A stretch of DNA of 53,663 nt, taken from contig NZ_JHVJ01000018.1 in assembly GCF_000620085.1 (NCBI RefSeq), forward strand, positions 1-53,663. The letters are read 5' to 3'. Under the pieces are notes generated by a model. The model was not told where the DNA came from and ran no database searches. It saw nothing but the letters and a program-made list of their open reading frames with translations. A program made the translations under genes and the position numbers. Shown here in pieces: positions 1,225 through 48,872 of this stretch (position 1 is its first letter; each line of letters opens with the position of its first letter). This DNA comes from Marinobacterium jannaschii DSM 6295 (GTDB lineage: Bacteria; Pseudomonadota; Gammaproteobacteria; Pseudomonadales; Balneatricaceae).

Positions 1225-4092
1225 ATGCAGGGAAATCAGGGCATAAAAGGAACATCATTTCTCAGCCTGCGCTGGAAAACGTTTTTATTGTTGGTATTGA
1301 TACTGCTGGTTGTTCACGGCAGCTATTCGTTTATTGCTTACTATCAACTGGAACAGCGTTTTGAGCAGGAACGGGAGCGAATTAACCAGCGCGATCTTGC
1401 CGTGCTGGAAGGCATGATCTCGTCATCCTACCAGCGTCTGCTGGAGGTCGGTGAGATGCTGCCGCTGATCGTCGAGAACCAGGCCGGGCATGATGTTGAT
1501 GAACTGCTGTTGATGAGCCAGGAGCTGAACCTCAACTTTAACCGTTTCACCCTCAATGGATCGTTAGACGCGCTTTATCTCTATAACGAGAGGGCCCAAC
1601 TGGTTGGTGCCTGGGGTAAGCCGATCGGCTTACCACTGTCGGTGGTGCGGAATGTGCTGCGCACGGAAAAGCCGGTGCGCAGCCTGGAGTGTTCCTATGA
1701 TTGCCTGCGTTATGTCGCGTTACCTTTACGCTTATCAGCACAACGCACCGGTGTTCTGGTGGTGGGCCGCGCACTGGTTGATATTATTCTCGCCTTTAAC
1801 CAGCAAAACAGCCGGGATGTTGGCTTGGCGCTGCGGGTCGACGGCCAGAGTAGCGAACTGCCGGACTGGGGGCTGAATCTCAAGTTTCTGACCCATAAAG
1901 TTGCCAGCCTTGAGGTCCTGCAGGGGGCGGTGCTGAGTTCCGGGCTGCCATTGGAAGGCGGACGCTTTTCGGTTGATTCTCAGGGGCGCCACTATGAAGT
2001 ACTGTTGCGCCCGCCTGCCGCATTGCCGGGCGAGAAAGTGTACTGGGTGCTGATGGAAGACCTGACCCAGAAGCAGAGTGAGCTTCGGCGTGAACTGTTT
2101 TCCAGCCTGGCTCTGGCTGCCGCTGGTCTGTTTGTTGCTGCGGTATTACAGCTCTCCGCGTTGCGAAAGCCTTTTGTTCAGCTATCCCATATTGCACGTC
2201 ATCTGCCGCTGCTGGCGGACAGCTCCTATGACAAGGTTAAAGAGGCACTGGACGTCAAGCGCAAGCCACTGCTTGGTTTTCATGACGAGCTGGATGTGCT
2301 GAGGGATAGCAGTCTGGAGCTGACTGATCAGCTTCGTGGTCTGGAACTGTCAGTTCTGGAGCGAACACAAAGCGCCCTGCAACGCAGCGAGGAGCTGGAG
2401 CGCGAGCGGGACTTTGTGACCAGCCTGCTGGATACCGCACAGGCGGTGATTCTGACGCTGGACTACAACGGCTACATTACATCGATCAACAGCTTCGGTC
2501 TGCGGGCGCTGGGAGTCGAGGAAGAGATACTGAACAAAGTCCGGTTTCAGGATCTGAACCATGATGAGCAGCATCTGCAGGAGCATTTTCAACAACTTGA
2601 CCGGTTAAGCAAGGGGCTGGAGCTGCAGGTACAGTTTGAGGGACGTCTGGAATCCAGCGACGGCTTTCAGCGTGATCTCACATGGCTTCATTCCCGCTTA
2701 AATCATCCGGGGGGCGATGGCAGCCGAATTCTTACCATAGGTATGGATATTACCGAGCGTAAGTCCGCTGAGCGCCGTCTGTTCTGGCTGGTCAACCATG
2801 ACCCGCTTACCTCCTTGCCCAACAGAATGCTTTTCAACGAACACCTCTCGGAGCAGCTGCGCAAGGTCAGAGTCGCCGAACGGGATATCGTTATACTGGC
2901 CTGTGACCTGGATGGCTTCAAGGCGGTGAATGAAGCGCTGGGCTATGTACTGGGAGATGACCTGCTGCGTCAGGCTGCTCAGCGCATACTGACTACCATG
3001 CCTGCCGGAACCATGGTGGCGCGCATGGGCAGTGACGAGTTTATGGTGACGCTCAACCTGCCGCGGGGCAGTGCGCTGACCGAGACCTGTCCGGCAGCAC
3101 TTCTGCAGGCGTTTCAGAAGCCTTTCCTGCTGGATGGTTACGAGATTTTTGTCACCCTAAGTATTGGTATCGCCCGCTACCCTGAGCATGGTGAAGATGC
3201 CACGACTCTGGTGAAAAGTGCCGATATGGCGATTTTCCAGGCTAAAGATGACGGCCGTAACCGGGTGCGTTTCTTTAATTCCTCCCTGGGTGTCGAGCGT
3301 GATGAGCGCTTCTCGCTGGTCAATGATCTGCATAAAGCGATTGAGAATAAGCAGTTGCTGCTTCACTACCAGCCGCAGATCAATGCGATCACCGGCAAGG
3401 TCGTGGGACTGGAAGCGCTGTTGAGGTGGAATCACCCGGTAGCCGGAATGATTCCTCCGGGTAAGTTTATTCCGGTGGCTGAAGAGCAGGGCTTGATTGT
3501 GCCCATTGGCGATTGGGTATTGGAACAGGCGTGTCTGCAGTTACAGCGGTGGCAGGCTGACGGTGTCTGCGATGTTCAGGTCGGTGTTAACCTGGCAGGG
3601 CAGCAGTTGATGCATGAGGGTATTCTTGGCTCCGTCGAAAGATCGCTGCAAAAAGCCGGACTGGATGCGACCGCGCTTGATCTGGAGGTGACAGAGAGCT
3701 TCCTGTTACGCCACACTGAGTCAACGATCAGCAAGCTTTACCAGTTACGGGAGATGGGGGTAACCCTGTCGATGGATGACTTCGGTACCGGATACTCCTC
3801 CCTCAGTTATCTGAAGAAATTACCGATGGACCGGCTTAAGATCGATCAGAGCTTTGTCCGCGACATTGGACGGGATGCCGATGATGAATCGATCGTGCGC
3901 GCCATTATTGCGTTATGTCAGAGCCTGGGACTTGAGGTACTGGCGGAAGGTGTCGAAACTGCCGAGCAACTGGCATTCCTGCGGATGCAGGGCTGCCATC
4001 TGATTCAGGGCTACTATTACAGTAAACCTCTGGAAGCGGAGGAGGTACTGCCGTACCTCCTGGAAAAAAACGCCGTCGCAGAGTCAGTTTAA
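1225..4092 (+). CDS. Membrane sensor PAS-GGDEF-EAL protein (c-di-GMP metabolism)
   Basis: 955 residues from ATG 1225, which follows AGACAGG; an in-frame TTG at 1189 would add 12 residues but has no clear ribosome-binding site. Order: transmembrane helix at about 20-40, a ~250-residue periplasmic sensor region, a second transmembrane helix at about 293-311, a coiled-coil/HAMP-like stretch, a PAS domain (~395-510), GGDEF (~525-680) and EAL (~700-945). The GGDEF signature reads RMGSDEF, so the second glycine is serine and cyclase activity is doubtful. The EAL domain looks intact: GLEALLRWNHP, DLEVTESFLL, DDFGTGYSSLSYL, LKIDQSF and AEGVET. The likely net role is c-di-GMP hydrolysis at the inner membrane, controlled by the periplasmic region and perhaps by the preceding binding protein. 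The 3' end overlaps the convergent gene by 9 bp. Confidence 0.9.
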   Translation: MQGNQGIKGTSFLSLRWKTFLLLVLILLVVHGSYSFIAYYQLEQRFEQERERINQRDLAVLEGMISSSYQRLLEVGEMLPLIVENQAGHDVDELLLMSQELNLNFNRFTLNGSLDALYLYNERAQLVGAWGKPIGLPLSVVRNVLRTEKPVRSLECSYDCLRYVALPLRLSAQRTGVLVVGRALVDIILAFNQQNSRDVGLALRVDGQSSELPDWGLNLKFLTHKVASLEVLQGAVLSSGLPLEGGRFSVDSQGRHYEVLLRPPAALPGEKVYWVLMEDLTQKQSELRRELFSSLALAAAGLFVAAVLQLSALRKPFVQLSHIARHLPLLADSSYDKVKEALDVKRKPLLGFHDELDVLRDSSLELTDQLRGLELSVLERTQSALQRSEELERERDFVTSLLDTAQAVILTLDYNGYITSINSFGLRALGVEEEILNKVRFQDLNHDEQHLQEHFQQLDRLSKGLELQVQFEGRLESSDGFQRDLTWLHSRLNHPGGDGSRILTIGMDITERKSAERRLFWLVNHDPLTSLPNRMLFNEHLSEQLRKVRVAERDIVILACDLDGFKAVNEALGYVLGDDLLRQAAQRILTTMPAGTMVARMGSDEFMVTLNLPRGSALTETCPAALLQAFQKPFLLDGYEIFVTLSIGIARYPEHGEDATTLVKSADMAIFQAKDDGRNRVRFFNSSLGVERDERFSLVNDLHKAIENKQLLLHYQPQINAITGKVVGLEALLRWNHPVAGMIPPGKFIPVAEEQGLIVPIGDWVLEQACLQLQRWQADGVCDVQVGVNLAGQQLMHEGILGSVERSLQKAGLDATALDLEVTESFLLRHTESTISKLYQLREMGVTLSMDDFGTGYSSLSYLKKLPMDRLKIDQSFVRDIGRDADDESIVRAIIALCQSLGLEVLAEGVETAEQLAFLRMQGCHLIQGYYYSKPLEAEEVLPYLLEKNAVAESV

Positions 4093-29377: not shown

Positions 29378-31393
29378 ATGGAACGAGTTCTGCTTCTGGT
29401 GGATGATGAACCGATGATCCTGAAAGCGTTACAACGGGTATTTCGCCGTTCAGGATACAAAGTAGTAACCGCAGAAAGCGGTGCCAGGGCACTTGAAGTG
29501 ATGGCATCGCAACCGGTCGCCGTTGTCCTGTCGGACTTCCGGATGCCGAATATGAACGGCGCTGAACTGATGTCGAAGATCCGCAGGGACTATGCCGACA
29601 CCGTACGTATGATATTAAGCGGCTATGCCGACCTTGATTCGATTATGCAGGCGATCAACAGCGGTGCTGTGTATAAGTTTCTGGCCAAACCCTTCGACGA
29701 GGCGGAACTAAGGTCCGCCGTGGAAGAGGCGTTTAACCTCTGGGCCGAGAACAGCCGCCTCAATACCTATCGCGAATTCGCCAACACCACCACCGATGCC
29801 ATGATCCGGCTGGATGCCGAACACCGCATCGTGCTGGCGAATCCCGCAGCTGGCGATTTGATCGGTGATGATAGCCGCACTTTGCAGGGACATCTGCTAA
29901 GCAACTGGTTTCTTAATGCCGACGACCTCCTGTCCCGGGAAGGCCTGCTCGACGGCGATATGCTCTCTTTCCAGCGGCCGGATGGTTCCCTGCTACAGGC
30001 GTTCTATACCGCGATGCCGGGCGGTTGCCAGCTAACACTGGCGCTGGCACCGCTGAATACACCGGTACATAACGCTATGGGGGTCAGTAATCTGATGACC
30101 CGCGATCAGATGATGGGATTTCTCGATCAGCAGCTTGAAAGTGCTGTCGACAAGGCGGCCCTCTTCTATCTGGATATTCACAACTTCACCCAGATCAATC
30201 ACAGCTTTGGCTATCGCTCTGCCGATCAGCTGCTGAAGGTGGTGGCCGATACGCTGATGGATCAGCTGGGTCAGGAAGACCGGCTGGCCTATATGGGCGG
30301 GGATGAATTTCTGTTGTTCAAGCCCGGAATCTCACTCAGCCATCAGGGACGGGACCTGATCACCCGCATACTGCAGCCGTTCGAGGCGATCATTCGCTGG
30401 GATGACAATGAGTGTTACCTGCGCTTTAACGCCGGATATGCGCTGGCGCCGGAGGATGGCGATACGCCGGAGGAGCTGGTGCGCAATGCGCAACTGGCCC
30501 TGAAAAGCGCCAAGGCCAGCGGTCGCAACTATTGCCCGCGTTACCAGACCGCGATGAACCTGCCGGGGCGAGAGATGCTGGAACTGCAGAACGGCCTGTT
30601 CCGCGCGCTTGAGCGGGATGAGCTGAGGGTCTATTACCAGAGCAAGGTCGATCTGAAAACCGGGTATATCGAAGGTGCCGAAGCGCTGTTGCGCTGGGAT
30701 CGCTCGCAGCAGGGGGTGGTGTCCCCGGCCGTGTTTATCCCGTTGGCTGAGGACTCCGGACTGATCAACCCTATTGGTGAATGGGTATTACAAAGCTCGG
30801 TATCCCAGTCCCGCATCTGGCATATGGAAGGCTTGCCGGGATTCCGGCTGGCGGTCAACCTGTCTTCGGTGCAGTTGCAGCATCCGGGTATAGTCGATGC
30901 CATTACCAACATACTCAACCTCAGCGGCATGCCGCCGGAGTATCTGCAGCTGGAGATTACCGAGTCGGTGTTTCTCGGCGATGTCGAGGCCTGCAAGCGG
31001 TTACTGGAGACACTGAAAGGTCTGGGAATAAGCCTGGCGATTGATGACTTCGGGACCGGATACTCTTCATTTAACTATCTGCGGGATCTGCCGGTGGATG
31101 TGCTGAAAATAGACCGCTCTTTTGTAACCGGAATAGAGCAGGATAAGGAACGCCTCAGTCTGGTCTCCAGCATGATCCGGATGGGACATGACCTCGGTAT
31201 GAAGGTTGTGGCTGAGGGCATCGAAAATGAACAGCAGTTGCAGTACCTGGCCGAGGCGGGCTGTGATCTCGGCCAGGGATTTCTCTTCAGTCCGCCGGTT
31301 CCGGCCGATTGTTTCCGGCGACAGCTGGAGCAGCAAACCTATCCGGTCCGCTTCAGGACAGAACCCAGGCCGTTGGCAGAGGCAGAGCAGTGA
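29378..31393 (+). CDS. Response regulator REC-PAS-GGDEF-EAL (c-di-GMP enzyme)
   Basis: 671 residues, ATG 29378 after CAAGGGCG. REC (~1-120) with phosphoacceptor in VVLSDFRMPNMNG, and FLAKPFDE. PAS-like segment (~130-230, TTDAMIRLDAEHRIVLANPAA). GGDEF (~245-405) with an intact YMGGDEFLLF. EAL (~415-660) with GAEALLRWDRS, LQLEITESVFL, DDFGTGYSSFNYL, LKIDRSF and AEGIEN. Both catalytic motifs look usable, so it may switch between making and degrading c-di-GMP under phosphorylation. The stop overlaps the GTG of the next gene by 4 bp. Confidence 0.93.
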   Translation: MERVLLLVDDEPMILKALQRVFRRSGYKVVTAESGARALEVMASQPVAVVLSDFRMPNMNGAELMSKIRRDYADTVRMILSGYADLDSIMQAINSGAVYKFLAKPFDEAELRSAVEEAFNLWAENSRLNTYREFANTTTDAMIRLDAEHRIVLANPAAGDLIGDDSRTLQGHLLSNWFLNADDLLSREGLLDGDMLSFQRPDGSLLQAFYTAMPGGCQLTLALAPLNTPVHNAMGVSNLMTRDQMMGFLDQQLESAVDKAALFYLDIHNFTQINHSFGYRSADQLLKVVADTLMDQLGQEDRLAYMGGDEFLLFKPGISLSHQGRDLITRILQPFEAIIRWDDNECYLRFNAGYALAPEDGDTPEELVRNAQLALKSAKASGRNYCPRYQTAMNLPGREMLELQNGLFRALERDELRVYYQSKVDLKTGYIEGAEALLRWDRSQQGVVSPAVFIPLAEDSGLINPIGEWVLQSSVSQSRIWHMEGLPGFRLAVNLSSVQLQHPGIVDAITNILNLSGMPPEYLQLEITESVFLGDVEACKRLLETLKGLGISLAIDDFGTGYSSFNYLRDLPVDVLKIDRSFVTGIEQDKERLSLVSSMIRMGHDLGMKVVAEGIENEQQLQYLAEAGCDLGQGFLFSPPVPADCFRRQLEQQTYPVRFRTEPRPLAEAEQ

Positions 31394-42207: not shown

Positions 42208-43554
42208 ATGGGCATGGCGAAGCGATCGCTTGAAGTGTTGCTGGTGGATGATGACGTTGCCGTATTGAATGCGCTGGAACGTGTCTTGCGTGCCCTGCCA
42301 TTACGGATAACCCGCTTCTCGGACCCCCGTGAGGCCCTGGCCCGATGCCGGCAACAGCAGTTTCAGGTGGTGCTGTCTGACCAGCGGATGCCCTGGATGC
42401 AGGGTACCGAACTGTTGCAGGAGATCGCCAGGCTGCAACCTGATAGCACCCGCTTAATCCTCAGTGGCTATGCTGATTTCGACCAGATTATCGCGGCCTT
42501 CAATCAGGGCACCATTCAGCAGTTCCTGCAAAAGCCCTGGGATGATCAGCAACTGATAAGCCTGCTCAATAAACTTTGTAGTGAGCGGCTGCCCTCGTCC
42601 AGCGAGGAAGAGGCTCAGCTGTTCAACGGCATGCTGAGCGGCGACGCGGTGATGCAGAACCTGTTTTGCCAGATTCCCCGGATTGCGTTGGCAAATGCCC
42701 CGGTATTTATCCACGGTGAGACCGGCACCGGTAAAGAGCTTGTGGCACGGGCGATCCATGCCGAAAGCACCCGTTCTGAAGGGCCCTTTGTCGCCGTCAA
42801 TTGCGCCAACTTCAGTGAGCAACTGATGGAGGCCGAGCTGTTTGGCCATAAGAAAGGTGCTTTTACCAGCGCCACTGCCGATCGTGACGGGCTGCTTAGC
42901 GAAGCCGATGGCGGTACCCTGTTTCTGGATGAGGTAACAACCTTGCCGATGCCGCTGCAGGCCAAGCTGCTACGGGTTCTGCAGGAGCGAAACTTCCGTC
43001 CGGTTGGCAGTAACCGGGTTGTCAGCTTTGATGCCCAGATCGTCTCGGCCTCGTCCACCGCACTGGCCGAGGCGGTGGCGCAGGGAAACTTTCGTTCCGA
43101 CCTGCAGTATCGCCTGGGGGTCTTGCCCCTGCAGTTGCCGCCACTCTGTCAGCGCGGAGATGATCCGGTACGCCTACTGATGCTCTTCCTGCAACAGCTG
43201 GATCCAAAGCGGCAGTTCCGCCTCAGCGAAGGGATGGCAGCTTGTCTGCTGCAACACCGATGGCCCGGTAACGTGCGGGAACTCTACAATCTGGCTCAAT
43301 ACCTCTGTGCTATGACGGATTCTGAATTGCTGCAGCGGCATATGCTGCCGGAGTACTGGAGCCAGGACGTTATCGCAGCCGATGCCGTCAGCGGGCTGCC
43401 ACATAAGATTCAGCTGGATCTGCAGAAGCTGGAAGCAGAACAGCTGGAGGCGTTACTTAACGAGCATGAAAATAACCGCAGTGCCCTGGCGCGGACGCTG
43501 GGCGTGAGCCGTATGAGCCTGTGGCGCCGGATGAAAGCACTGCAGCTTTCCTGA
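42208..43554 (+). CDS. Sigma-54-type response regulator (REC-AAA+-Fis) with GAFTSA loop
   Basis: 448 residues. REC (~5-125) with phosphoacceptor in VVLSDQRMPWMQG and FLQKPWDD. AAA+ domain (~145-375): Walker A GETGTGKE (~169), the sigma-54 contact loop GAFTSA (~217-222, usual GAFTGA), Walker B GGTLFLDEVTTL, arginine-finger region FRSDLQYRLGVLPLQLPPL and HRWPGNVREL. C-terminal Fis-type HTH (~410-446): ENNRSALARTLGVSRMSLWRRM. The second Gly of GAFTGA touches sigma-54 and region 1; Ser here may weaken or retune that contact, or the protein may work without sigma-54. It directly precedes the predicted sRNA gene and could be its regulator. Confidence 0.92.
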   Translation: MGMAKRSLEVLLVDDDVAVLNALERVLRALPLRITRFSDPREALARCRQQQFQVVLSDQRMPWMQGTELLQEIARLQPDSTRLILSGYADFDQIIAAFNQGTIQQFLQKPWDDQQLISLLNKLCSERLPSSSEEEAQLFNGMLSGDAVMQNLFCQIPRIALANAPVFIHGETGTGKELVARAIHAESTRSEGPFVAVNCANFSEQLMEAELFGHKKGAFTSATADRDGLLSEADGGTLFLDEVTTLPMPLQAKLLRVLQERNFRPVGSNRVVSFDAQIVSASSTALAEAVAQGNFRSDLQYRLGVLPLQLPPLCQRGDDPVRLLMLFLQQLDPKRQFRLSEGMAACLLQHRWPGNVRELYNLAQYLCAMTDSELLQRHMLPEYWSQDVIAADAVSGLPHKIQLDLQKLEAEQLEALLNEHENNRSALARTLGVSRMSLWRRMKALQLS

Positions 43555-43599
43555 AACCGGTGACCGCCTGTTTCCTCATTGAATCACTTCTTTAAATAC

Positions 43600-43653
43600 C
43601 TGTAACAGTAGTGTGACAGCTGTAACAGCTGATACAGGTAAAGGCTGTAACAG
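43600..43653 (+). promoter_or_regulatory. Cluster of TGTAACAG direct repeats upstream of the predicted sRNA
   Basis: CTGTAACAG occurs at 43600-43608, 43620-43628 and 43645-43653, and a variant TGTGACAG at 43612-43619. 43620-43637 reads CTGTAACAGCTGATACAG, an 18-bp palindrome with one mismatched pair. 43601-43618 (TGTAACAGTAGTGTGACA) is a partial match to the GacA-type box TGTAAG-N6-CTTACA. A weak sigma-54-like TGGCACG-N4-CTGTA lies at 43715-43730. Confidence 0.55.
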
Positions 43654-43739
43654 CACCTGTTCCTTTTTCTGTCATATTTTTGTAACTCATTGAATATTAA
43701 TATCTTAATCAGACTGGCACGTAATCTGTATTAAGTAAT

Positions 43740-44205
43740 ATGCCTCAGTCGGAAATAAAACTGGCAGTCAGGATACAACCCTTAGTGAGGGCAAAGCGGG
43801 AGTATCTGATATCTGTCACCGGTTGCCGTAACGTCACGTCGGGACGACACAGACAACCACATCCCACCTCTGAGACGGCGGCTATTGTTTTCGTCTGGGG
43901 CGCCAGAATGCAATGCTCGCCGGGGACAGAAGCCCCGTTGAGCTGCCACCGGGAGGTGAATTGGTAAGGCTACGAGCTGCTGCTACGGAGAGGATTCAGG
44001 GAGGCGTCAGCCAGGGAGCGGCTGTTCAGCAGGGATGCTGTGATCGGGAGCTAAAGCAAAGGAAATTCTCAGTGAATAACGGGCCGAGGGACACGCCCGG
44101 CACAGGGATGTGCCCAGACCTAAATCTGTCGTTTGCTTAACCCGTGCCCATCGCCTGGGCTGGCTCAGGCCAGCCGGGCACGGTCTCCATTCTTCTTTTC
44201 TTGCC
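43740..44205 (+). ncRNA. Candidate CsrB/RsmZ-like sRNA (CsrA-sequestering)
   Basis: No protein is encoded here. The plus strand carries about fifteen GGA motifs, eleven of them between 43924 and 44108. Several are loops of small perfect hairpins: CACC-GGGA-GGTG (43947-43958), CAGCA-GGGA-TGCTG (44027-44040), GGCACA-GGGA-TGTGCC (44099-44114), and CAGCC/GGCTG with AGGGAGC (44008-44024). Others, such as CGGGG/CCCCG with its GGA on the stem edge, lie between. Repeated A/C-GGGA in loops is the hallmark of CsrB, RsmY and RsmZ RNAs, which titrate the translational repressor CsrA/RsmA. The 3' end is marked by a long hairpin and T-rich stretch. The 5' end is not fixed; the RNA could begin anywhere from about 43730 to 43900. 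Its identity is inferred, without database comparison. Confidence 0.75.
44142..44202 (+). terminator. Terminal hairpin of the predicted sRNA
   Basis: Outer stem CCGTGCCC (44142-44149)/GGGCACGG (44176-44183), inner stem GGCTGGC (44158-44164)/GCCAGCC (44169-44175) with loop TCAG, an 8-nt one-sided bulge, then the pyrimidine-rich TCTCCATTCTTCTTTTC. The T tract is interrupted, so termination efficiency is uncertain. Confidence 0.62.
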
Positions 44206-44290
44206 GGATTTCGTGCCAGGTCGTCACAGGGAGGTGACACCGCTTTTTCATTCCTCTGCTCCAGCCTTCAGGTTTCAATCCGCTGAAAAT

Positions 44291-44310
44291 AAAAAACCGC
44301 CCGAAGGCGG
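44291..44310 (-). terminator. Rho-independent terminator after nirD
   Basis: Plus-strand A6 (44291-44296), CCGCC (44297-44301), CGAA, GGCGG (44306-44310). On the minus strand this is a GC stem with a UUCG tetraloop followed by U6, ending the nirBD message 38 bp after the nirD stop. Confidence 0.9.
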
Positions 44311-44347
44311 TGGAAGGGCTTGCTTCATTGACGCAATTCAGCGGCGT

Positions 44348-44689
44348 TCAGGCGCAGATTTCGACCTGCTGATCCTTCAGGCGTACCGGCCATGTCTGCA
44401 GTGTAATGTCCTCTTCCAGGCACTCACCGCTCTGCAGGTCGTAATGTTGCTTATACAGTGGTGATGCGACCACCAACTTACCCTGCAGGTCGCCGACGAT
44501 ACCGCGGGCGATGACGTTGGCTTTGGCGATAGGGTCATGGTTACTGACCGCGAACACCTCGTTGTCCTGCCCCGGCAGGTAGAACAGGGCGATCTGCTCG
44601 CCGTTATGCAGGGCGGCAACGCCAGAGTCCGGTACCAGATCGTTCAGGTCGCAGAGGGGTTTCCAGTCAAGCTTTGCTTTGGTTGTCAT
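44348..44689 (-). CDS. nirD: Nitrite reductase (NADH) small subunit
   Basis: 113 residues. Rieske-like fold of the NirD family without the cluster-binding Cys/His pairs: WKPLCDLNDLVPDSGVAAL, IALFYLPG, VFAVSNHDPIAKANVIARGIVGD and KLVVASPLYKQHYDLQSGECLE, ending with TWPVRLKDQQVEI. It partners NirB in the cytoplasmic siroheme nitrite reductase that reduces nitrite to ammonium with NADH. ATG 44689 lies 31 bp after the nirB stop, preceded by GGGAGA; the operon ends in the terminator at 44291-44310. No nasA nitrate reductase gene follows, unlike many assimilatory clusters. Confidence 0.95.
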   Translation of the reverse strand: MTTKAKLDWKPLCDLNDLVPDSGVAALHNGEQIALFYLPGQDNEVFAVSNHDPIAKANVIARGIVGDLQGKLVVASPLYKQHYDLQSGECLEEDITLQTWPVRLKDQQVEICA

Positions 44690-44720
44690 TTTTTCTCTCC
44701 CAATCTGAAGGTGCGATGAG

Positions 44721-47700
44721 TTATGCCGGACGTGGCTGGCTGCGTTCCTGAATCATGACGATCTGGCTATCGGCGCTGTCATCATTGACGAAGGTGCGGA
44801 AGCGTTTCAGTTTTTCCGGATCTTCCAGGGTGGCTTTCCACTCACACTGATAAGTGCCCACGACCTGGGCCATCTGCTGTTCCAGTTCGGCGCTGATCTC
44901 CAGCTTGTCGTCGATCACCACTTCGCGCAGGTAGTCGAGGCCGCCTTCCAGGTTGTCCATCCATACCGAGGTACGCTGCAGGCGGTCAGCGGTCTTGATG
45001 TAGAACATCAGCAGGCGGTCGATATACCTGATCAGCGTCTCGTCATCCAGGTCGGTGGCAAAGAGGTCGGCATGGCGCGGTTTCATACCGCCGTTACCGC
45101 AGACATAGAGGTTCCAGCCGTTTTCGGTAGCGATAACGCCGATATCCTTACTCTGGGCTTCGGCACATTCACGGGTACAGCCGGAGACGGCGAACTTGAT
45201 CTTGTGCGGTGAACGCAGGCCCTTGTAACGGTTCTCCAGGTTCAGTGCCATGCCGACACTGTCCTGCACGCCGTAGCGACACCAGGTGCTGCCGACACAG
45301 GATTTCACCGTACGCAGGGATTTGCCGTAGGCGTGGCCGGTCTCGAAACCGGCATCCACCAGCGCTTTCCAGATCTCAGGCAGTTCATGCAGCTGGGCAC
45401 CAAACAGGTCGATACGCTGGCCGCCGGTGATCTTGGTGTAGAGGTCGTACTTCTTCGCTACCTCACCCAGCACGATCAGCTTGTCTGGGGTGATCTCGCC
45501 ACCGGCGATACGCGGCACGATGGAGTAGGTGCCGTTCTTCTGCATGTTGGCCATAAAGGTATCGTTGGTATCCTGCAGGCCGACATGCTTCTCATCCATC
45601 ACATGTTCGTTCCAGCAAGAGGCCAGGATAGAACCGGCCGTCGGCTTACAGATATCGCAACCCAGCCCCTTACCGTGCCTGGCCAGCAGCTCTTTAAAGC
45701 TGCGGATGCCTTCGACGCGCACGATGTGGTACAGCTCTTCGCGGGTATAGGCAAAGTGTTCACACAGATCGGTGCAGACCTCGACGCCGCGCTTCTCCAG
45801 CTCGCATTCCACCACGCTCTTCAGCAGGGCGGCACAGCCGCCGCAGCCAGAGGCGGCCTTGGTTGCCGCCTTCACGCCGGCGACATCGGTTGCCCCTTCG
45901 TCGATGGAACAGCAGACCTGGCCCTTGGAAACGTTGAGGCAGGAGCAGATAGTGGCGGTATCGGGCAGCGCATCCGGACCCAGGGCCGGAGAAGCGCCAT
46001 CGCTCTGCGGCAGGATCAGGCTTTCCGGCTGGGCCGGCAGCTCGATACCGTTAAGGGCGTACTGCAGCAGGGTATCGTAGAGGCTGTTATCGCCCACCAG
46101 TACCGCACCCAGCAGGGTCTTCTTATCTTCACTGACGATGATGCGACGGTAGATCTGCTCGTCATCGTTGCTGTAGCGATAGCTGATGGCGCCCGGGGTA
46201 TGGCCCTGGGCGTCGCCGATCGAGCCGACATCGACGCCGAGCAGCTTCAGCTTGGTACTCATATCGGCACCGAGGAACTGATCATCACCGCCGTTGAGGT
46301 GAGTGCCTGCTACCTTGGCCATGCTGTAACCCGGGGCTACCAGGCCAAAGATACGGCCGCTCCAGAGGGCGCATTCGCCGATGGCGTAGATATCCTTATC
46401 GGAGGTCTGGCAGTTGCTGTCGATCACGATACCGCCACGCTCACCGATCTCCAGGCCGCTCTGGCGCGCCAGCTCATCCTGCGGCCGGATACCGGCAGAG
46501 AACAGGATCACATCGGTCTCCAGCACTTCGCCATCGGCAAAGTTCATGCGGTGAACATGGTTTTCGCCATCATCGATCAGCTGGGTATTCTTGCCGGTAT
46601 GCACGGTTACGCCCAGGTCTTCGATCTTACGACGTAGCAGGGCGCCGCCATCCTCATCCAGCTGCACCGCCATCAGACGCGGGGCAAACTCCACCACATG
46701 GGTTTCCAGTCCCAGATCACGCAGCGCCTTGGCGGCTTCCAGGCCAAGCAGGCCGCCGCCGACCACCACGCCGACCTTACCCTTAGCGGCGGAAGCGGTG
46801 ATCTGTTCCAAATCTTCGATGGTGCGGTAGACCAGGCAGTGCTCACGGTCATGGCCCGGTACCGGTGGTACGAAAGGGAATGAGCCGGTCGCGAGTACTA
46901 ACTTGTCATAGCTGATCTGCTCGCCGTTGGCGGCGGTGATCAGCTTATTGTCACGGTCAATAGCGGTCGCCTTGTCGCCCAGACGGACATTCAGCCCCCA
47001 GCGGGCATAGAGTTCCGGCTTACCCATGGCCAGGTCGTCCGCCGTCGAGCCTGAGAAGTAGGCGCTGAGGTGGACGCGGTCGTAGGCCAGGCGGGGCTCT
47101 TCACAGAATACGGTGATATCCCAGGCTTCGCTCTGTCCGGTTTCCACCAGGTTTTCCAGAAAGTGGTGGCCTACCATGCCATTACCGATGACGACCAGTT
47201 TAGATTTGTTCATTGGGTAGCTCCTGTCGGAAATCTCAGCCCGCAGCTCTTTCTCCAGAGCCTGTTCGGGACGTGACGGGTTTAGCTCAGCCGCATTGTT
47301 ATTGTTGTCAGCGGGGACCGGGCGGGTGTTATCTGCCGGGCGTGCCAGGGTGGCGGCTGCCGCAGCGTTTTCAGGGGAGTTAGGTGCAGCACTGAGGGCA
47401 TCGTTGCCATACAGGTGCAGTGCCATCTCACGTCCGAACATCAGGGTCGGACGCAGCTGGCTGATATCCGGCTGCTGCCGGATCAGGTCGAAATACCAGT
47501 TGCCGTCAGTGACGTCGCCATAAAGCACGGCTCCGACCAGGCGGTCATTCCTGAACAGCAGTTTTTTGTAGTGGCCGCTGATACGGTCTTCAAACCGCTG
47601 TGATTCCAGGCCTTCGGCATCCAGGTATTCACCCGCCGAGAACAGGTCGATACCGGAAACCTTCAGCTTGGTGGCCACGGTTTCGACCTCATAGCGGGCG

Positions 47701-48626
47701 TTGCTGTAGTCACAAAGCTGATCGGCCAGTATCCGGGTCTGATCCCAGATCGGCGCCACCAGACCAAAGGTTTCGCCGTTAAACTCGCAACATTCGCCCA
47801 GCGCATAGATTGCCGGGTCGCTGCTGCACAGATGCTGATCGACCAGGATGCCGCGGTTGCACTCGAGGCCGGCGCGGGCCGCGAGTTCGGAATTCGGAGT
47901 GATGCCGATGGCAATCACCACAAGTTGCACGTCCATTGTGCTGCCGTCAGCAAGTGTGACGGCCTCCACTTGTCGTTGACCGGAAAAATGGCTGGCTTCG
48001 CTATCCATCAGAAAATGGATGCCGCGTGACTCTAATGCCTGCTTAAGCAGGTCTGCTGCACGGGCATCCAGCTGACGGTTTAGTAACCAGCCACCGCGAT
48101 GTAACACCGTCACATCGCAGCCTGCCTGACGCAGGCCATAGGCGGCTTCCAATCCCAACAGGCCACCGCCAATGACCAGCGCGTGGTCGCAGTTAGCTGC
48201 GCCACGGCTGATCGCCTCCACATCATCCAGGGTACGAAAGCTGAGGATGCCCTCCAGTTCTGATTCTGCTGCCGCCGCGGGCAGGGCCGGATCGGAACCG
48301 GTAGCGATGACCAGCTTGTCATAGTGAAGGACGATGCCGGAGCTGCTGATCACTCGTTTATTATTGCGGTCGATCTCCTGCACTGGGTCGCCGCTGTAGA
48401 GACTGATACCGTTGTCCGCGTACCAGTCCAGAGGATTCAGCATAATCTCGTCCGCATTCGCCTCACCGGCCAGCACCGGCGATAGCATGATGCGGTTATA
48501 GTTTCCATAAGGCTCAGCACCAAACACCGATATCTGATAGCGACCGGCATCGCGCTTGAGGATCTCTCCCAGCAGCCGACCGGTTGCCATGCCGTTGCCT
48601 ATCAGTATTAAGTGCTCTTTAGCCAT
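44721..48626 (-). CDS. nirB: Nitrite reductase large subunit NirB with extra N-terminal FAD/NAD module
   Basis: One uninterrupted frame of 1301 residues. Residues 1-~405 are a complete FAD/NAD(P)-binding reductase (LILIGNGMATGRLL, KLVIATGSDP, VIGGGLLGLEAAYGL, IYALGECCEF). A low-complexity Ala/Pro/Asn linker follows (~415-465), then a full NirB from Met472: VVIGNGMVGHHFLENLV, a second FAD/NAD core, the BFD-type [2Fe-2S] motif CSCLNVSKGQVC with GCGGC, a further Cys pair GLGCDIC, and the siroheme/4Fe-4S ligands CVGSTWC and CTREC. Ordinary NirB is about 840-850 residues. A ribosome-binding site before Met472 may allow a separate NirB. The N-terminal module resembles NasB-type electron-transfer subunits of assimilatory nitrate reductase. 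Nitrogen-control signals lie upstream (sigma-54 promoter, leader terminator). Confidence 0.92.
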   Translation of the reverse strand: MAKEHLILIGNGMATGRLLGEILKRDAGRYQISVFGAEPYGNYNRIMLSPVLAGEANADEIMLNPLDWYADNGISLYSGDPVQEIDRNNKRVISSSGIVLHYDKLVIATGSDPALPAAAAESELEGILSFRTLDDVEAISRGAANCDHALVIGGGLLGLEAAYGLRQAGCDVTVLHRGGWLLNRQLDARAADLLKQALESRGIHFLMDSEASHFSGQRQVEAVTLADGSTMDVQLVVIAIGITPNSELAARAGLECNRGILVDQHLCSSDPAIYALGECCEFNGETFGLVAPIWDQTRILADQLCDYSNARYEVETVATKLKVSGIDLFSAGEYLDAEGLESQRFEDRISGHYKKLLFRNDRLVGAVLYGDVTDGNWYFDLIRQQPDISQLRPTLMFGREMALHLYGNDALSAAPNSPENAAAAATLARPADNTRPVPADNNNNAAELNPSRPEQALEKELRAEISDRSYPMNKSKLVVIGNGMVGHHFLENLVETGQSEAWDITVFCEEPRLAYDRVHLSAYFSGSTADDLAMGKPELYARWGLNVRLGDKATAIDRDNKLITAANGEQISYDKLVLATGSFPFVPPVPGHDREHCLVYRTIEDLEQITASAAKGKVGVVVGGGLLGLEAAKALRDLGLETHVVEFAPRLMAVQLDEDGGALLRRKIEDLGVTVHTGKNTQLIDDGENHVHRMNFADGEVLETDVILFSAGIRPQDELARQSGLEIGERGGIVIDSNCQTSDKDIYAIGECALWSGRIFGLVAPGYSMAKVAGTHLNGGDDQFLGADMSTKLKLLGVDVGSIGDAQGHTPGAISYRYSNDDEQIYRRIIVSEDKKTLLGAVLVGDNSLYDTLLQYALNGIELPAQPESLILPQSDGASPALGPDALPDTATICSCLNVSKGQVCCSIDEGATDVAGVKAATKAASGCGGCAALLKSVVECELEKRGVEVCTDLCEHFAYTREELYHIVRVEGIRSFKELLARHGKGLGCDICKPTAGSILASCWNEHVMDEKHVGLQDTNDTFMANMQKNGTYSIVPRIAGGEITPDKLIVLGEVAKKYDLYTKITGGQRIDLFGAQLHELPEIWKALVDAGFETGHAYGKSLRTVKSCVGSTWCRYGVQDSVGMALNLENRYKGLRSPHKIKFAVSGCTRECAEAQSKDIGVIATENGWNLYVCGNGGMKPRHADLFATDLDDETLIRYIDRLLMFYIKTADRLQRTSVWMDNLEGGLDYLREVVIDDKLEISAELEQQMAQVVGTYQCEWKATLEDPEKLKRFRTFVNDDSADSQIVMIQERSQPRPA
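47211..47226 (-). promoter_or_regulatory. Internal ribosome-binding site and start codon inside nirB
   Basis: On the minus strand AGGAGCTACCCAATG: AGGAG at 47225-47221, 7-nt spacer, ATG at 47213-47211 (Met472). The peptide starts MNKSKLVVIGNGMVG, the usual NirB N-terminus. It would give an 830-residue NirB from the same mRNA. Confidence 0.7.
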
Positions 48627-48682: not shown

Positions 48683-48734
48683 AAAAAAGGCGTTCCTCTG
48701 CTACACCGGTGAGGTGGTGTAGAAGATGAACGCC
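48683..48734 (-). terminator. Leader terminator (attenuator) ahead of nirB
   Basis: On the minus strand GGCGTTC (48734-48728) pairs with GAACGCC (48695-48689), the inner stem CTACACC/GGTGTAG stacks inside (48722-48716/48707-48701), and U6 follows (48688-48683). It sits between the sigma-54 promoter and the nirB ATG (48626), where it can only act as a conditional terminator. A weak upstream hairpin CCC-ATTATT-GGG lies around 48755-48766. Confidence 0.85.
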
Positions 48735-48777
48735 TTTGTTCTTTAGCTGTGTCCCCCAATAATGGGTACAAGGGTTA

Positions 48778-48795
48778 TAGCAGGGTACGTGCCAA
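48778..48795 (-). promoter_or_regulatory. Sigma-54 promoter of nirBD
   Basis: Minus strand TTGGCACGTACCCTGCTA: GG and GC elements 10 bp apart, matching TTGGCACG-N4-TTGCT with one difference in the -12 box. Expected start about 48768, giving a ~140-nt leader that contains the attenuator. Confidence 0.86.
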
Positions 48796-48872
48796 TAAAT
48801 ATAATTACTTATATTTCAATTGGTTATAATTTATTTATTGCTCTGTAAAGTGTGTGGCTGATGTTGTAGGGG

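Follow-up and report, generated by a model that had tools for sequence, protein, structure and literature searches.

A group of hairpins that carry AGGGA in their loops, in numbers beyond what chance provides, lies behind a sigma-54 activator gene in the window, by which we mean the whole stretch of 53,663 nucleotides of DNA analysed here. The best reading of these hairpins, judged from the sequence, is a CsrA/RsmA-type sponge RNA, and we consider it probable that this RNA is the dedicated output of the adjacent activator, in a layout like that of CbrB and CrcZ. The hairpins, the repeats behind the activator gene, a conserved control region and an intact CsrA are all present, and a predicted promoter and a predicted terminator flank the GGA-hairpin region at 43741-44258 (Table 1).

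From these features we infer a transcribed, sigma-54-dependent, untranslated and CsrA-binding RNA that would work as follows. The phosphorylated activator (42208-43554) would bind the CTGTAACA repeats at 43600-43653 and open the sigma-54 promoter at 43714-43730; an RNA of about 520 nt that is not translated, with its end near 44258, would then be made, and about five AGGGA sites in its 3' half would bind CsrA dimers. In this way the RNA would take CsrA off its mRNA targets and, with CsrA titrated, the regulator's signal would relieve CsrA control.

Table 1. Coordinates, in the window, of the predicted RNA, its hairpins and its control region
Feature	Position	Strand	Basis or remark
NtrC-type sigma-54 activator with receiver, AAA+ and Fis-type HTH parts; probably switches on the RNA	42208..43554	+	Pfam, orthologues
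Three exact CTGTAACAG repeats (43600, 43620, 43645) and TGTGACA (43612)	43600..43653	.	Probable activator sites (predicted)
Sigma-54-like promoter CTGGCACGTAATCTGTA	43714..43730	+	-24 element good; -12 element TGTA, not TGCA
Untranslated GGA-hairpin RNA, about 520 nt (predicted)	43741..44258	+	Start from promoter, end from terminator-like hairpin (both inferred)
Hairpin cagcc AGGGAGC ggctg (cagccAGGGAGCggctg)	44008..44024	+	GGA 44015 unpaired 0.94
GGGA-tetraloop hairpin cagca GGGA tgctg (cagcaGGGAtgctg)	44027..44040	+	GGA 44033 unpaired 0.98
AGGGA	44087..44091	+	GGA 44089 unpaired 0.93 in long folds; paired in the isolated 43-nt fold
Hairpin ggcacaGGGAtgtgcc	44099..44114	+	GGA 44106 unpaired 0.98 in long folds; partly paired in the isolated 43-nt fold
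Strong hairpin, rich in GC; may be a first or partial terminator	44142..44183	+	-30.2 kcal/mol, z -3.7
GGA-bearing hairpin, then T-rich tail; likely both terminator and final CsrA site (predicted)	44220..44248	+	GGA 44230 unpaired 1.0

The locus and the extent of the predicted RNA

The gap at 43555-44347, in which no protein gene is recognised, sits between the activator gene on the plus strand and the nirD and nirB genes on the minus strand (44348-48626). From the stop of the former to the end of nirD at 44348 it measures 793 bp, in agreement with the gene-free gap of about 790 bp given in a preliminary description of this DNA, which had read 43740-44205 as a regulatory RNA similar to CsrB and RsmZ. 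That extent does hold the GGA motifs described, but a second GGA hairpin and a T tail, together terminator-like, follow, and the RNA probably reaches about 44258. The terminal hairpin of the same description, at 44142-44183, is strong; it was not among the sites reported by a terminator scan. Terminator-like sites number two in 43500-44400, against a mean of 1.1 in shuffles.

GGA hairpins and chance

The stretch 43740-44205 holds 15 GGA on the plus strand and two on the minus strand, matching the earlier count of about fifteen on one strand, and the slightly longer stretch 43741-44260 holds 17 on the plus strand, six of them as AGGGA. At 43842, 43952, 44015, 44033, 44106 and 44230 a GGA sits in the loop of a perfect hairpin. 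The GGGA loops on perfect stems noted before are present in caccGGGAggtg (GGA at 43952), cagcaGGGAtgctg (44033) and ggcacaGGGAtgtgcc (44106). Longer loops are found in cagccAGGGAGCggctg (GGA 44015) and in gtcacAGGGAGgtgac (GGA 44230, past the end drawn previously), and the hairpin gtcgGGAcgac (GGA 43842) has a loop shorter than a GGGA tetraloop.

The raw number of GGA is unremarkable: at least 15 are present in 67 of 1000 shuffles of 43740-44205, the 17 in 43741-44260 are reached by 90 of 3000 dinucleotide shuffles, and similar counts occur at several other places in the window. The hairpins are a different matter. None of 3000 dinucleotide shuffles gets to six AGGGA in 43741-44260, none of 3000 shuffles has four GGA loops on stems of at least five Watson-Crick pairs, and eight of 3000 have six GGA loops on stems of at least four pairs. 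In the loop counts GGG equals GGA, and with stems of 5 bp AGG does so too, a tie that is expected because the sites are AGGGA.

A similar picture comes from the genome itself, of which 0.8 Mb was sampled as 40 stretches of 20 kb. Four GGA hairpins with stems of 5 bp occur in none of 78,640 segments of 350 nt and in eight of 78,000 segments of 520 nt, while six with stems of 4 bp occur in 50 of 78,000 segments of 520 nt, the top place being coding sequence in a kinase-like gene. When stems of 4 bp are counted over 350 nt, two other places in the window are richer or equal, 1880-2460 (plus strand, seven) and 30140-30590 (plus strand, six), both of them within long open frames.

Folding and exposure of the sites

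Folding predictions give five of the 17 GGA an unpaired probability above 0.9 in the ensemble (44015, 44033, 44089, 44106 and 44230), every one of them within an AGGGA; of the 15 within 43740-44205, four exceed 0.9 and 10 have a probability below one half. Of the GGA in perfect hairpins, those at 43842 and 43952 are largely inaccessible, with unpaired probabilities of 0.10 and 0.26. Averaged over all GGA, the predicted exposure is 0.45; E. coli csrB has 0.80, and two RsmZ-like RNAs from the same family of bacteria have 0.67-0.74. An isolated fold of 44080-44122 paired parts of both its GGA, contrary to the long folds, and an isolated fold of 43840-43860 cut through its hairpin and is uninformative. 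With the well exposed GGA numbering five, the RNA would be a small sponge at most.

Searches for known families and homologues

Over the whole window, the gathering score is reached by no Rfam family except tRNA, at 17-89. Among the families that fall short are CsrB, CsrC and RsmX/Y/Z/V; the Rfam models do not uphold the CsrB/RsmZ-like identity first proposed, and the RNA is therefore assigned to no Rfam family. The closest model is RsmV (RF04320), which matches 44083-44257 on the plus strand with 23.9 bits and an E value of 2e-4, below its gathering score of 100. A relaxed Rfam search of 43300-44700 returned RsmV as the best match and the sole one below E 1, six others having E values of at least 2.7. 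Across the whole genome, with strict filters and 34 of 65 candidates scored, this was the sole match reported for the RsmV model at E <=0.1 (E 1.8e-4), and in 60 genomes the locus at 43741-44258 gave the best match, four others matching at E 0.1, the best of them with 0.0066. For the CsrB model (RF00018), 30 of 161 candidates in the genome were scored and none matched at E 0.1; PrrB_RsmZ (RF00166), with 78 of 119 scored, had six weak matches with E values up to 1, all elsewhere. The best of these six (L165) does not look like a sponge by eye and was set aside.

A DNA search of 56 other genomes, in which at most nine candidates per genome were scored, found no homologue of the RNA. The two best matches hit the control region and not the RNA; those to the RNA part were short, at most 55 bases, with a best E value of 0.006. 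A DNA search of plasmids gave no match to the region, and Rfam gave nothing at E 0.5 on the loci of seven relatives. That the search brought up no conserved RNA sequence, and that the whole RNA folds in an ordinary way (z -1.13, with 15 of 100 shuffles folding as well), would suit a reading in which no functional RNA exists and leftover DNA behind a conserved promoter happens to form GGA hairpins. We consider this very unlikely, given that the AGGGA and 5-bp hairpin counts are reached by none of 3000 shuffles, that the RsmV match has an E value of 1.8e-4 for the genome and that an ordered control region lies upstream.

The activator and its control region

The product of the gene at 42208-43554 has the motifs SDQRMP, a Walker A GETGTGKE and a loop GAFTSA instead of GAFTGA, and none of the 25 NCBIfam models shown for it reaches its cut-off. 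Sigma-54 activators usually carry GAFTGA, and the promoters they act on are of the GG-N10-GC type and have activator sites upstream; both the GAFTSA loop and the imperfect -12 element make sigma-54 dependence less certain. Among orthologues of the activator, the loop reads GAFTHA in L113-L115 and GAFTGA in L116-L118, and TGTA at -12 is common to the promoters of L116-L118, L186 and the window. The pattern TGGCAC-N6-TGTA has two matches in the window, where 0.07 are expected, the other being at 47410 on the minus strand, inside nirB. The CTGTAACAG repeats lie about 90-140 bp before the inferred transcription start.

Six orthologues of the activator, at 54-61% identity and from two genera, were found among 115 other genomes of the family, and all six of these genomes have CTGTAACA-type repeats and a TTGGCAC-like, sigma-54-like promoter behind the activator. 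When the search for orthologues was widened to 389 other genomes of the order, four had one at E 1e-92; the repeats and the promoter are present in one of them, G182 (L186), and absent in L185, L187 and L188. A relative at 46% identity (L119) is also without them. The control regions of the six orthologues, G182 and the window align as eight sequences, L185, L187, L188 and L119 being left out, with TAA, TGA, GGC and G invariant and the sigma-54-like promoter conserved in place. Searching genome contigs with the activator yielded matches of 33-39% identity only, and these were not used.

The pair pattern CTGTAACA-N4..34-TGTAACA was designed after viewing these promoters, and its presence in them is thus by construction; its absence elsewhere alone is informative. 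In the window's own genome it occurs at 43600-43652 only, as two overlapping matches. It is found behind the activator in the six family genomes that hold orthologues, and further CTGTAACA pairs lie away from the activator at two places each in G011 and G025. It is absent from G182 and from all four genomes of the same genus, in which the best matches to the activator have 36-39% identity. A reversed control pattern gave three matches across the 12 genomes.

In the relatives, the promoter precedes protein genes. The gene behind it resembles that of a secreted protein in G182 and in six of six family relatives. L113-L115 have a small secreted protein there, L116-L118 a signal-peptide-bearing protein together with a second secreted protein that by eye resembles a PapD-type chaperone, and L186 a secreted protein whose C-terminal tail is sorting-like. 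The same position in the window holds the GGA-hairpin RNA. Because a protein gene follows the promoter in the relatives, the strongest rival is an mRNA for a small protein, the promoter driving a short or lineage-specific gene and the GGA hairpins being leader structure or chance. Two open frames of 75 aa, at 43740-43967 and 43913-44140, lie within the gap and could be such a gene; on the other side, a Pfam scan at E 1 of three plus-strand frames and one minus-strand frame of the RNA region gave no match, no signal peptide was seen by eye at the start of the region's frames and the AGGGA hairpins go beyond shuffles. The Pfam test is a weak one, as four of the relatives' own secreted proteins were also tested and have no match above the cut-off. 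Taken together, we regard a small-protein mRNA as unlikely and prefer a sponge RNA. How such a sponge could have come under this control is a more tentative matter, but one possibility, to which we give somewhat less than even weight, is that an activator with a single target, whose conserved promoter precedes secreted-protein genes in related genera, has gained a CsrA-sponge RNA as its sole output in this lineage, so that the Csr system would have an input apart from GacA/UvrY.

Csr components and the usual route of control

The genome has one intact csrA (L001:1468-1656, minus strand, over the NCBIfam cut-off), which by eye lies downstream of a lysC-like gene. In a CsrA sponge the hairpin loops should carry several GGA, with ARGGA the preferred form; here such loops exceed chance, and a csrA lies in the same genome. 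The sponge reading of the preliminary description holds in these two respects, the hairpins fitting it well; it is weakened by the lack of an Rfam score at threshold and of a GacA box in the gap and by the exposure of about five of 17 GGA, and it had missed the sigma-54-type control region. The link to carbon-storage and motility control drawn there is hypothetical.

CsrA sponges are usually taken to be outputs of BarA/UvrY or GacS/GacA, and the GacA box is TGTAAG-N6-CTTACA. The RNA could be a CsrA sponge whose transcription starts at a promoter of the sigma-70 or GacA/UvrY type, independently of the adjacent activator. The genome encodes a UvrY/GacA-like regulator, the best match of its kind, 43% identical to E. 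coli UvrY and under the NCBIfam cut-off, and known sponges such as RsmY and RsmZ are GacA controlled (PMC8249394). Set against this are the position of the sigma-54-like site, conserved in place, the finding of no sigma-70-like site in 43500-44400, where 0.6 are expected, and that of no GacA-box-like site within two mismatches in the gap. A scan of the genome showed no enrichment of GacA-box-like sites, with 73 against 87 in the reversed control, and is uninformative. We think such a promoter quite unlikely and retain the sponge driven by the adjacent activator as the preferred reading.

The genome may have a second sponge elsewhere. In two other genera of the same family, RsmZ-like RNAs lie directly behind an epimerase-like gene (L149 and L150, in G009 and G017). 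This gene is present in 61 of 69 genomes, and 30 of its loci were fetched. The other 28 have no such RNA by same-strand GGA count, two of them being partial and four being read by eye, and these include the locus in the window's own genome, where no such RNA lies behind the orthologue. A strong CsrB-like RNA, with 33 GGA and 18 GGA-loop hairpins, was seen in a further genome (L148:1251-1740, G042); at 55.3 bits, it too is under the Rfam gathering score of CsrB, which is 71.

Comparison with known systems

RsmV of Pseudomonas resembles the window RNA in having AGGGA hairpins in a similar order and in closing with a GGA hairpin and a pyrimidine-rich tail. The window RNA differs from it in score, its 23.9 bits falling short of the gathering score of 100, and in its sigma-54-type control region, and since the RsmV model covers 44083-44257 only, the predicted RNA has an additional 5' part. 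With CsrB/CsrC and RsmY/RsmZ (RF00018, RF00166) it shares an intergenic position, many GGA in loops and a CsrA in the same genome; unlike these sponges, it has fewer exposed GGA, no GacA box in the gap and, among the candidates scored, no match to the CsrB or PrrB_RsmZ model at this locus.

Sigma-54 activators that drive regulatory RNAs include LuxO, with Qrr, and GlrR, with GlmY, but these RNAs act by base pairing or as RapZ decoys and are not known to be CsrA sponges. The nearest precedent for the layout is CbrB with CrcZ/CrcY of Pseudomonas, where a sigma-54 response regulator likewise controls a decoy RNA. The crcZ gene adjoins cbrB, and CrcZ is a decoy for Hfq/Crc with A-rich motifs (AAYAAYAA). 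CbrB is a sigma-54 response regulator that activates decoy RNAs through GTAACA/TGTTAC sites (PMC6296734, PMC8871633). The window RNA could itself be a CrcZ-like decoy for Hfq/Crc, since its gene immediately follows that of a sigma-54 response regulator and the CbrB subsites GTAACA/TGTTAC (PMC6296734) are similar to the TGTAACA found here. We judge this extremely improbable because the A-rich motifs are absent: the RNA contains neither AAYAAYAA nor AANAANAA, and the feature that is enriched in it is the GGA hairpin.

For an RNA that is under sigma-54 control and binds an RsmA-type protein, a partial precedent comes from a review in which RsmA and RsmN are said to bind CrcZ as well (PMC8871633). 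In P. stutzeri, an rpoN mutation raised rsmZ, the opposite direction to that of a sigma-54-driven sponge (PMC8249394). A sigma-54-driven CsrA sponge was not found in the open-access literature covered, including PMC5109040, PMC8249394, PMC8871633 and PMC11882849. If our reading is correct, a dedicated sigma-54 activator that switches a sponge would provide a second input to the Csr system, and the locus would show a decoy RNA taking over an existing promoter of a protein gene and would point to sponges below the Rfam thresholds.

The neighbouring nir region

On the other side of the gap, a near-consensus sigma-54 promoter, TTGGCACGTACCCTGCT, lies upstream of nirB at 48779-48795 on the minus strand and is preceded by a block, TTGAAATATAA, that resembles a block of the aligned activator promoters. 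The nirB leader (48689-48806, minus strand) matches Rfam P11 (RF00625, a Pseudomonas sRNA) below threshold, with 25.8 bits and an E value of 0.001 against a gathering score of 70, and by eye it has a terminator-like hairpin with a T run; it is perhaps a nitrate-assimilation leader. The nitrite reductase frame itself (44721-48626, minus strand, 1301 aa) has two stretches of Pyr_redox_2 and of Rubredoxin_C ahead of NIR_SIR, which gives NirB the look of a fusion with an additional oxidoreductase.
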